Source: Bacillota bacterium (GTDB lineage: Bacteria > Bacillota > Sulfobacillia > Sulfobacillales > JAIMBI01). From it: a stretch of DNA of 44,005 nt. Positions within the stretch are counted from its first letter, which is position 1. The number at the start of each line of letters is the position of its first letter. The translations under genes and the position numbers were made by a program. Under the pieces are notes generated by a model. That model was not told where the DNA came from, did not search any database, and saw only the letters and a program-made list of their open reading frames with translations. Shown in pieces: positions 2,630 to 5,323 of this stretch. The stretch lies in assembly GCA_021846505.1 (NCBI GenBank), contig JAJZWV010000030.1, forward strand, positions 1-44,005, written 5' to 3'.

Positions 2630-3853
2630 CTATGGGGGCGTCCGGCCCGGATGCGTTTCTGGGAGCCGCCACGCAATGAACAGCGCGGCGGCGATGACCA
2701 AGCCACTCACGAGGACGAGGCTCGCGTGCATGCCGATGGCAGCCAGCAGGAGCCCGAGGCCCAATCCGCCGACGGCGTAGCCGCCGTCGCGCCAGAGCCG
2801 GTAGACGCCCAGCACGGCCCCCCGCTCGTGCGGGGCGGCCACGTCGGCCACGGCCGCATTCAGCACGGGGTACGCCATGGCCATGCCGAATCCCATGGCG
2901 GCGGCCGCCCCCGCCCAGCTGGCGGTGCCGGTCGCGGCTACCATGACCGCCAGCCCCGCCCCGAGGAGCAGCAGGCCCGCCACAATTAAGGGCTTGCGGC
3001 CGGTGCGATCGGACCAGAGCCCGGTGCCAAACTGGCCCAATCCCCATACGCCGGCATAAATGGCGGCCAAAAGGCTAATGGTGGCGACCGACGCATGCGC
3101 CCGCGCAAAGTACAGCGGCAAAAGCCCCCACGCGGCCGTATCGGCCACCTTGTTGATAAAGCCTCCCAGCGTGATCGACGACAGAGCCGGGTGGTCCCAG
3201 GTGGCCTCCCGGAAGATCAGGCCAAAGGGCCGTGCACCCTGGCTCGGCGCCGCAGCCACGTGGCCCCGCGTCTCGCGAATGACGGCCGCACTCTCAAGGC
3301 AGCCCACCAGGGCAATCGCCCCAGCGAGATAGAAAGGCCGCGTTGCCAGGTGGCCGTGTGCGGCCAACAGCCCCGCGGCGGCAGTGGCCAGCGCCACCCC
3401 CAGATATCCCATCGCTTCGTTAACTCCCATCGACAGTCCCCGCTCCTGGGGGATGACCAGGTCCAGCTGGGCGGTGACGGTCATGGTCCACGCCAGGCCC
3501 TGGTTGGCCCCCAGCAAGACGTTGGCCGCGATGACGGCCCACCAGGCGTGGGCCAGCAGCAGCAGGAGCACCACGGGAATGGCCAGCAGCCACCCGGCCA
3601 CCAGCAGGGGCCGGCGGCCAAGCGAGTCGGACCACCGGCCGGCCCCCATGTTCACGAGCGCTTTGGTGAGGCCGAACGAGGCAATAAACGAAAGGGCCAG
3701 GGCGGCGGCCACATGATACACGTCGCGCCCCAGCAGCGGCACGATGGTGCGCTCGGTGCCCAGCATTCCCCCGACCAGCAGCACGTTCACGGCGAGCCAG
3801 GAAAACTGCGCGCGGTTTTTGGCCAAGCCCGGCTGAGGGGACAGCGCGGTCAT
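2630..3853 (-). CDS. MFS transporter in the ArsR-rhodanese/MBL operon
   Basis: A 407-residue, 12-helix-type major facilitator. Both halves carry the loop 2-3/8-9 signature: GRWSDSLGRRPLL near residue 75 and GLWSDRTGRKPLI near residue 280. Its ATG overlaps the TGA stop of the preceding MBL gene as ATGA, with AGGAGG immediately upstream, so translation is probably coupled to termination of the MBL gene. This overlap only makes sense if the MBL frame is read through its internal TGA codons. The substrate is unknown; operon context suggests a sulfur compound or a product of persulfide/thiosulfate chemistry, or drug-like export. No lesion seen. Confidence 0.9.
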   Translation of the reverse strand: MTALSPQPGLAKNRAQFSWLAVNVLLVGGMLGTERTIVPLLGRDVYHVAAALALSFIASFGLTKALVNMGAGRWSDSLGRRPLLVAGWLLAIPVVLLLLLAHAWWAVIAANVLLGANQGLAWTMTVTAQLDLVIPQERGLSMGVNEAMGYLGVALATAAAGLLAAHGHLATRPFYLAGAIALVGCLESAAVIRETRGHVAAAPSQGARPFGLIFREATWDHPALSSITLGGFINKVADTAAWGLLPLYFARAHASVATISLLAAIYAGVWGLGQFGTGLWSDRTGRKPLIVAGLLLLGAGLAVMVAATGTASWAGAAAAMGFGMAMAYPVLNAAVADVAAPHERGAVLGVYRLWRDGGYAVGGLGLGLLLAAIGMHASLVLVSGLVIAAALFIAWRLPETHPGRTPP

Positions 3854-4578
3854 GCCTCCTGCTCGCTGTTAGCGGCCACGATGGCTTGGAAGTTGGCGGC
3901 CTTCTCCGGCAGCGTCGACACGATGAACTCCACAAACTGGCTCGGGGAGCGAGGAGCCAGCGCGGGATTGAACCGGCGCTCGAATCCAATCGTGGAAACG
4001 ACCTTTCCACTGAGGTCCCGCCCTCAGGTGGATCCGCTGAAGGCGCCCGGATACACCTCGACAGAGTCCGGCAGAGCCATGAGCTTGGCGAGGCTTTCCT
4101 GCAAGGCCGCCGCGCCCACCGTGGGAGCCAGGTCGGGCCGGCCGGCATCGCCAATCATCAGGGCGTGCCCGGTGAGCACAAACCAGGGGTCCGGCCCGCC
4201 GCGCCGATCGGTGACGACCAGGCTGATGTGGTCCGGGGTGTGGCCGGGGGTGTGCCAGACGACGGCGCTCACGTTGCCCAACTCGAGGCGATCGCCATCG
4301 CGCACGCGCCGCACCGGGTCTTTGACGGGTGCGGCGGCGCCGCGCACGTCGGTGGCGCCAGTGGCCGCCGCCAGCGCGCGCGCCCCCGACAGGTGGTCGG
4401 CATGCGTGTGGGTATCCACGACAAACGTGAGAGACAGGTCGAGCCGGGACAAGTCGTCCAGGTACGGGTCCAAATGAGGGAGTGGATCCACCACTGCCGC
4501 GAGGCCCTGGCCGCCTCACCCCAAAAGATACGAAGCGGCCACCACGGGGTCGGTGTGCAGATGCTGGCGAAAAATCAT
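3850..4578 (-). CDS. Putative selenoprotein: persulfide-dioxygenase-like MBL-fold protein with two in-frame TGA (Sec) codons
   Basis: From ATG 4578 (AGGGAGG 6 nt upstream) the frame runs 242 codons to TGA at 3850, interrupted only by TGA at codon 21 (4516-4518) and codon 185 (4024-4026). The protein shows the MBL metal motif DTHTHADH (H57, H59, D61, H62), TPGHTPDH (H113) and GDAGRPDL, and continues after the second TGA with LSGKVVSTIGFERRFNPAL, which is typical of this ETHE1/persulfide-dioxygenase branch. Both TGAs fall where I recall family members having cysteine: SYLLG-x-GG and SGST-x-GR. A hairpin follows each TGA at bacterial SECIS distance. The end overlaps the MFS start by 4 bp. TGA is a normal stop in neighbouring genes. 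Likely role: oxidation or handling of persulfide/sulfide-derived sulfur together with the adjacent rhodanese. The position of the usual TGD motif reads TGH. Alternative: a pseudogene with two nonsense mutations. Confidence 0.85.
3992..4010 (-). promoter_or_regulatory. Candidate bacterial SECIS hairpin for TGA codon 185
   Basis: On the minus strand, 13 nt after the second in-frame TGA, GTGGAAA and TTTCCAC form a perfect 7-bp stem around the 5-nt loop GGTCG. The loop starts about 20 nt after the TGA. A short stem with a G (and U) in the apical loop at this distance is what SelB needs in bacterial mRNAs. The loop closely matches the GGUCU loop of E. coli fdhF as I remember it. Confidence 0.7.
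4481..4495 (-). promoter_or_regulatory. Candidate bacterial SECIS hairpin for TGA codon 21
   Basis: On the minus strand, 20 nt after the first in-frame TGA, AGTGG and CCACT form a 5-bp stem around the loop TGGAT, which has G at its second position. The loop begins about 25 nt after the TGA, inside the usual range. It is weaker than the second element. A competing hairpin (GAGGC/GCCTC) starts at the TGA itself. Confidence 0.5.
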
Positions 4579-4635: not shown

Positions 4636-5298
4636 TCAGCCGGTGGCAGATTCCTCCCAGGGCCAGTCCCGCACACTGGCTTCCGTGCGCCGGGCGCGGA
4701 TGCCCTGCTGGTGCAGGAAGCGCACCGCGTCCCGCGCGTACAGGCAGTACCGGCCCCGGCAGTAGGCCACCACCGGCATGGGGCTGGACCACCCGCGAAA
4801 ATGCTCCGCCAGCATCGGCAGCGGCACCGAGACGGCCCCCGGCAGATGGCGCGCGGCATATTCAGCCGCCGGCCGCACGTCAATCAGGTAGACGGCCTGG
4901 CAGGCCACCAGGGCGTGGAGCTGGTCCAGCGGCAGCGGATCCGCATCGGTGGGGTCGCCAAACCCACGCTGGCGCAGCGCCACCAGCTCCAGCAGCAGCG
5001 CCTCGCTGGCGTCCTCGACCGACGCGGTGAGCGCGGCCACGGCTGGGCTGGCCAGCTCGTAAATGACGTAGGTGCCTCGCTTGTGGGACCGCACCAGCCG
5101 CGCCGTGGACAGCTGGCGCAGATGCTGCGACGTGTTGGCCACACTGGCGCCCAGCTCGCGCGCCAGCTCCTCGACACTCTTGGGCTCCTGGCCGAGCAAA
5201 TCTAAAATCTCCAGCCGCCGGGGGCTGGCCAGGGCTTTGCCCACGCGCGCGACCTGTCCGTACACCTCGTCTTTCCACCCCCGGTGGCTGTCGCTCAT
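4636..5298 (-). CDS. ArsR-family transcriptional regulator fused to a rhodanese domain
   Basis: A 220-residue fusion. Residues about 15-95 are an ArsR/SmtB winged helix (SPRRLEILDLL, VEELARELG, NTSQHLRQL, RGTYVIYEL). Residues about 120-215 are a rhodanese domain with LIDVRPAAEYAARHLPGA and the active loop YCRGRYC (Cys180 catalytic, Cys185 nearby). Proteins of this type are thought to sense reactive sulfur or thiol state and control sulfide-oxidation genes; the two cysteines fit persulfide or disulfide sensing. I chose ATG 5298 because GAGGAG lies 7 nt upstream; a TTG at 5313 is less likely. It is the first gene of the operon, 57 bp ahead of the MBL gene, and its promoter carries repeats suited to autoregulation. 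Confidence 0.92.
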   Translation of the reverse strand: MSDSHRGWKDEVYGQVARVGKALASPRRLEILDLLGQEPKSVEELARELGASVANTSQHLRQLSTARLVRSHKRGTYVIYELASPAVAALTASVEDASEALLLELVALRQRGFGDPTDADPLPLDQLHALVACQAVYLIDVRPAAEYAARHLPGAVSVPLPMLAEHFRGWSSPMPVVAYCRGRYCLYARDAVRFLHQQGIRARRTEASVRDWPWEESATG

Positions 5299-5309
5299 AG
5301 GATCGCTCC

Positions 5310-5323
5310 TCAAGTATTCAAGT
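5310..5323 (-). promoter_or_regulatory. Possible ArsR operator
   Basis: Two copies of TCAAGT (plus-strand reading, 5310-5315 and 5318-5323) lie between the -10 box and the ribosome binding site, within an imperfect inverted repeat bounded by CTCA and TGAG. The position, over the expected transcription start, suits repression by the ArsR-type protein encoded just downstream. Inferred from position only. Confidence 0.4.

Follow-up and report, generated by a model that had tools for sequence, protein, structure and literature searches.

The closest described relatives of the protein analyzed here are persulfide dioxygenases of the metallo-beta-lactamase (MBL) superfamily, and in particular the persulfide dioxygenase domain of the CstB type, represented by the structures 3r2u from Staphylococcus aureus, which we take to be CstB itself, and 3tp9 from Alicyclobacillus acidocaldarius. 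The type I persulfide dioxygenases ETHE1 and AcPDO have the MBL fold, the HxHxDH motif and the His of the TPGHT motif in common with our protein, and structure alignments place enzymes of the ETHE1 type at about 28-34% identity to it. AcPDO depends on two essential redox-active cysteines, which have been proposed to form a disulfide (PMC6060420). At the level of gene organization, the BigR/Blh sulfide-detoxification operon pairs a repressor with an enzyme in which a sulfur transferase and a sulfur dioxygenase are united (PMC5823870). Selenocysteine (Sec) is also no stranger to sulfur metabolism, as the catalogued selenoproteins include rhodanese-like forms 1-5 (TsoB among them), CoA-disulfide reductase, type III sulfide quinone reductase and YeeE/YedE (PMC13188914). 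These proteins likewise have Sec in place of Cys in sulfur transfer or sulfide handling, but none of them has the MBL fold or resembles a persulfide dioxygenase.

The window, by which we mean the whole stretch of 44,005 nucleotides that was analyzed from a Sulfobacillales genome, contains on its minus strand a gene (3850..4578) for an MBL-fold, persulfide-dioxygenase-like protein that we predict with high confidence to be a selenoprotein with two Sec residues, Sec21 and Sec185. The frame runs from an ATG at 4578-4576 to a TGA stop at 3852-3850 and would give a product of 242 amino acids and about 26 kDa, both Sec included. Its translation meets internal stops only at codon 21 (4516..4518, minus strand; SYLLG-U-GG) and codon 185 (4024..4026, minus strand; SGST-U-GR), both TGA. 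The preliminary description had drawn this same single frame, and re-translation of 4578..3850 reproduced it exactly. That description had further held that family sequence continues in one frame on both sides of each TGA, and homologues do align in this way, past codon 185 and on to about residue 237; Pfam Lactamase_B (PF00753) covers residues 11-176. Upstream on the same strand lies a gene whose product joins an ArsR/SmtB repressor domain to one of the rhodanese type (4636..5313, start codon uncertain), and downstream an MFS transporter gene (2630..3853, minus strand), which overlaps the Sec gene by the 4-bp ATGA that had been reported earlier and that we see at 3853-3850. An Rfam scan of the window matched no family, and PADLOC gave no match.

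An AF2 model of the MBL protein (mean pLDDT 95) found its best structure matches in 3tp9 (TM 0.95) and 3r2u (TM 0.92, both values on the query), followed by ETHE1-type enzymes and glyoxalases II, and profile matches to 3tp9 and 3r2u had E values of 1e-61 to 1e-64. Placement near the persulfide dioxygenases, as first suggested, was right for both fold and sequence, and sequence and modeled structure agree in assigning the protein to the persulfide-dioxygenase group within the MBL superfamily. The columns of the two Sec residues align with the Cys of YLxGC (YLIGC in 3r2u and YLVGC in 3tp9) and of AGSxCGK in these structures, the second being the invariant Cys of a GSxCG motif. Among the relatives recovered by the genome scan, column 185 was Cys or Sec in 80 of 80, and column 21 was usually Cys and sometimes Asp or Ser. 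The cysteines of AcPDO, C87 and C224, sit elsewhere in the sequence than Sec21 and Sec185.

Although the fold is that of the CstB-type domain, sequence and structure alignment with that type brought out several differences. The MBL protein is a stand-alone domain, with the rhodanese carried by a second protein, the ArsR fusion. Sec takes the place of both Cys, His that of the iron-ligand Asp, and Ala that of the His in the PGH/PAH motif. Compared with the BigR/Blh operon, the present locus has the rhodanese on the repressor and not on the enzyme, an MFS transporter in the operon, and Sec residues; the NCBIfam model bifunc_ST_SDO (Blh) matched the MBL protein below its cut-off. The window's genome also holds a paralogue of the MBL protein (L052, G000:C107:6132-6815; 47% identity) with Asp21, Cys185 and no internal stop, and viral contigs contained just three distant relatives.

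Since translation table 11 formally gives the gene two premature stops, one could suspect that sequencing error, or decay into a pseudogene, had produced two nonsense codons, but the distribution of these codons among relatives speaks against it. In a class-wide genome search for MBL homologues, in which internal stops were recorded and codons were read copy by copy, TGA at column 21 or 185 was found in 16 Sulfobacillales genomes. Both TGAs are present in 14 intact copies from 13 Sulfobacillales genomes, one of which has two paralogues; among the sources are three further species of the window's genus, at about 80% identity, and Sulfobacillus harzensis (L110), whose culturable strain DSM 109850 has two copies with both TGAs. 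Copies of this kind other than the window's own are 59-80% identical to it at the protein level. Three copies from two genomes combine TGC21 with TGA185 (L102 and L091 in G398; L104 in G400), and one Sulfobacillales copy is cut off by a contig end after TGA21. TGT/TGC occupy the two columns in intact copies from two genomes and in a truncated copy from one, and the nearest relative outside the class also has TGT/TGC at columns 21/185. TAA or TAG occurred at these columns in no copy found by the genome searches.

The in-frame UGAs therefore stand at columns where homologues have Cys, as the preliminary description had expected, and they are conserved in relatives that use Sec, which is the pattern of a selenoprotein gene. 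Its argument that two chance nonsense mutations were unlikely to strike exactly these codons has been strengthened: TGA recurs at these columns in the 16 Sulfobacillales genomes, and a single TGA, at column 21 in all 29 copies checked, occurs in about 45 genomes of two further phyla (see below), which lies far outside what chance would give. The frame is kept on both sides of each TGA, the conservation of synonymous sites falls mainly in the hairpins described below, and the operon is conserved. A pseudogene or sequencing error is thus vanishingly improbable, and we consider it ruled out by the conservation of TGA across many independent genomes.

The genome from which the window derives (G000; 3.58 Mb, 96% complete) has the means to read UGA as Sec. 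The preliminary description had named selA, selB, selD and tRNA-Sec as genes to look for, and all four were found: selA (508 bits), selB (320 bits), selD (354 bits; L041, G000:C27) and a tRNA-Sec (67.8 bits) with the anticodon TCA (UCA). The selD gene has an in-frame TGA itself and reads U-GCK, in which the U is the known Sec position of SelD, and the gene for the formate dehydrogenase alpha subunit (FdhA; L225, G000:C33) has an in-frame TGA within a UHAP motif. Given this machinery and these two TGA-containing genes, the genome very probably uses Sec elsewhere than in the MBL gene. A weak match to the SelB profile at G000:C80:95983-96354 (L006), an elongation-factor-like stretch with one in-frame TGA, is possibly a pseudogene or a chance frame.

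Another way to obtain a full-length protein would be that UGA is read genome-wide as some other amino acid, or that read-through is an ordinary leak. TGA is also an ordinary stop in this genome, however, terminating both the MBL gene and its upstream neighbor, and the residue aligned with the internal TGAs is Cys rather than Trp or Gly; on these two counts an alternative code is rejected. Moreover, the hairpin tied to each TGA vanishes where the codon is one for Cys, and the genome has both the Sec machinery and other TGA-containing selenoprotein genes. Taken as a whole, reassignment or leakage is extremely improbable as an explanation for the two codons.

The presence of selA generally follows that of the Sec form of the gene. 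It was above the cut-off in all Sulfobacillales genomes with a Sec copy except G388, whose copy (L098) has both TGAs and both hairpins, yet no selA was found in this 96% complete assembly; either a contig is missing or the Sec trait has been lost. Of the Cys-only relatives, four (L111, L112, L113 and L120) have no real selA, and two (L118 and L121) use Cys although selA is present.

Comparison of the homologous copies strongly supports a SECIS hairpin of its own for each UGA, predicted in both cases to lie inside the coding sequence. SECIS-1 (4479..4497, minus strand) follows UGA21 by 25 nt and has up to 7 bp and the loop UGGAU; the core of the window copy consists of five uninterrupted pairs (4481-4495). 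SECIS-2 (3992..4010, minus strand) follows UGA185 by 20 nt and has a 7-bp stem, GUGGAAA/UUUCCAC, with the loop GGUCG. The SECIS-1 stem and its UGGAU loop are common to 17 sequences from three phyla, in which 91.6% of cells are paired and two pairs have changed on both sides in a compensatory manner; the covariation score was reached by none of 500 shuffles, and in seven sequences with Cys at column 21 pairing drops to 45%. For SECIS-2, the 7-bp stem is found in all 17 TGA185 copies, nearly all with the same stem sequence as the window copy and with a five-base loop that is mostly GGUCG. Pairing of SECIS-2 is 100% of cells in 16 distinct TGA sequences versus 32% in the Cys copies, although covariation could not be demonstrated because the stem is too invariant. 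Considering only degenerate codons of an invariant amino acid, the mean majority-codon fraction was higher inside the hairpins than outside, at 0.85 versus 0.54 for SECIS-1 (p = 0.0003) and 0.83 versus 0.52 for SECIS-2 (p = 0.001; Mann-Whitney tests).

Published rules for bacterial SECIS elements cover the loop and the spacing, and set an energy of -7.5 kcal/mol (PMC13188914). The spacings of 20 and 25 nt, the five-base loops and a G within the first two loop positions all match these rules, and the energies of the window-copy hairpins are modest, with -5.1 kcal/mol for the core of SECIS-1 and -7.2 kcal/mol for SECIS-2 being borderline against the energy rule. A competing alternative fold appears once the region beside the UGA or more flanking sequence is included, and SECIS-2 is the minimum-energy fold when the first 11 nt are removed, which mimics a ribosome positioned on the UGA. 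Single-sequence folding of the window copy was not informative (z of -0.05 to -1.35), and the case for the SECIS hairpins therefore rests on the comparative evidence.

It might be asked whether just one UGA is decoded as Sec while the other acts as a stop, or is read through at a low level, to give a shorter product. Two UGAs in one message reduce the yield of full-length protein, which would favor such an arrangement. The genomes G398 and G400 (the former with two such copies) indicate that a single Sec can suffice, as Sec21 has reverted to Cys (TGC) and SECIS-1 has decayed there with Sec185 and SECIS-2 intact. The same copies, however, demonstrate that the two hairpins vary independently, one lost and the other kept, and elsewhere each UGA has its own constrained hairpin. 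Furthermore, a stop at codon 21 would mean no protein at all, and a stop at codon 185 would remove the conserved C-terminal part. Decoding of one UGA only is thus very unlikely, and we favor Sec at both positions.

A scan of named genomes turned up two relatives whose sole TGA lies at column 21, from an Armatimonadetes MAG (L116) and from a Rokubacteria MAG (L117); selA is present in both genomes. Searches of the two phyla centered on these copies yielded single-TGA copies in about 14 genomes of the L116 phylum and about 32 of the L117 phylum, or about 45 overall, counts that include fragments. In all 29 copies examined from the two phyla (L193-L208 from Rokubacteria; L209-L221 from Armatimonadetes), column 21 is TGA and column 185 is Cys, and most single-Sec copies adjoin a homologue of the same MFS gene. 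Sec at column 21, as predicted from these codons, is not limited to the Sulfobacillales lineage, and the single-Sec copies fit no catalogued selenoprotein family. The Rokubacteria-phylum copies have the loop UGGAU (UGGAC in one copy) on a compensated stem, CUGUGG/CCACAG. Most copies from the L116 phylum (L211-L221) have an unrelated conserved sequence about 34 nt after the UGA, CCUC-AGUUC-GAGG, which can fold at -4.4 kcal/mol. We propose this as a weak candidate SECIS, and it might represent a different solution at the same codon.

In a quick maximum-likelihood tree of 99 proteins, the Sec185 copies formed one clade with full SH-aLRT support, and the changes that the tree required numbered four for column 21 and one each for column 185 and the metal ligand. 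Within the Sulfobacillales, Sec185 would accordingly have been gained once and Sec21 would have reverted to Cys once.

At the metal site, the protein departs from its described relatives. AcPDO holds its iron with two His and one Asp (H57, H113 and D130); the equivalents of H57 and H113 are kept in the MBL protein, but that of D130 is His138 (codon 138, 4165-4167), and the His of the PGH motif is Ala179 (codon 179, 4042-4044). The two replacements are fully coupled, occurring in 25 of 25 members of one clade and in 0 of 74 proteins outside it, all 74 of which have His179. The clade extends to Cys forms from Bradyrhizobium, Devosia and Chryseomicrobium. Of the features that mark a persulfide dioxygenase, then, an MBL fold closest to these enzymes is present, whereas the two-His-one-Asp iron site is absent from the clade, as is the PGH-motif His. 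This pattern suggests a three-His metal site with altered chemistry in the His138/Ala179 clade, and the reaction that these proteins catalyze may differ from that of persulfide dioxygenases. AcPDO variants at D130, D130H among them, have 0.5-2% of activity left (PMC6060420). With Asp changed to His and His to Ala, true persulfide dioxygenase activity of the Sulfobacillales clade is uncertain, and because a defining feature of these enzymes fails, persulfide-dioxygenase-like is the correct label.

Of the loci tested, nearly all have a homologue of the MFS gene close to the MBL gene. This holds in three phyla and for Cys forms as well (34-83% identity), and many MBL loci are flanked by ArsR-rhodanese homologues. 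A role for the MBL protein with persulfide or sulfane sulfur, in the detoxification of sulfane sulfur or sulfide, seems somewhat probable. On a strongly supported reading of the sequence, SelB and Sec-tRNA decode each UGA by way of its own SECIS hairpin within the coding sequence. In the proposed pathway, the ArsR-rhodanese repressor may sense sulfur species, such that sulfide or sulfane sulfur would elicit a response of the operon. The Sec enzyme would take up sulfane sulfur, its presumed substrate, with Se-S or Se-Se chemistry that resists over-oxidation, and the sulfane sulfur would then be processed at the putative metal site. The MFS protein could export the product, which plausibly would be sulfite or thiosulfate.

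An alternative is that the protein is a selenoprotein but no dioxygenase, and that within the same operon the three-His site serves sulfur or selenium transfer, thiol-redox reactions, hydrolysis, or reactions with compounds of selenium or arsenic. Metalloid resistance is another setting in which ArsR repressors and MFS exporters are found, which would suit this possibility. So would the strict coupling of D138H with H179A and the near loss of activity in AcPDO D130H (PMC6060420). On the other hand, the fold, the rest of the metal motif, the rhodanese neighbor and the two columns of Cys or Sec match persulfide dioxygenases, and in the single-Sec relatives the canonical Asp and His are retained, with the same MFS neighbor. 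A function other than dioxygenation is a possibility to be taken seriously, while the persulfide or sulfane-sulfur role remains our preferred reading. We give roughly even chances to a broader proposal, namely that the locus represents an undescribed selenoprotein family of at least three bacterial phyla, forming a selenium-dependent persulfide-dioxygenase-like branch with an ArsR-rhodanese/MBL/MFS operon, and that its Sulfobacillales branch, with two Sec and a three-His site, may perform a new metal-plus-diselenide or selenenyl-sulfide chemistry.

An MBL-fold or persulfide-dioxygenase family is absent among the 119 prokaryotic selenoprotein families in the May 2026 inventory (PMC13188914), and no selenoprotein of either kind is mentioned in the main text of the 2025 deep-Sep paper or in that of a 2022 review. 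NCBIfam 20.0 has no model naming such a family. Openly accessible journal articles on selenoproteins with an MBL fold, metallo-beta-lactamase or persulfide dioxygenase describe no such family. Selenoproteins and persulfide dioxygenases are both known; a Sec-containing relative of the latter, here doubly Sec-containing, is new. To judge from its sequence, the product of the gene is very probably a selenium-containing enzyme of a sulfide-detoxification kind that has not been catalogued.

This selenoprotein family, widespread and so far uncatalogued, appears to tie the use of selenium to the detoxification of sulfide or persulfide, and in dozens of genomes the gene would be cut short or overlooked if annotated with the standard code. 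The Sulfobacillales form combines an altered metal site with two Sec, each served by a SECIS of its own, and thereby offers a good test of the worth of selenium against its cost. The forms Cys/Cys, Sec/Cys, Cys/Sec and Sec/Sec constitute a natural series, in which a single order includes Cys-only, double-Sec and reverted forms, and the effect of each replacement is therefore directly measurable.
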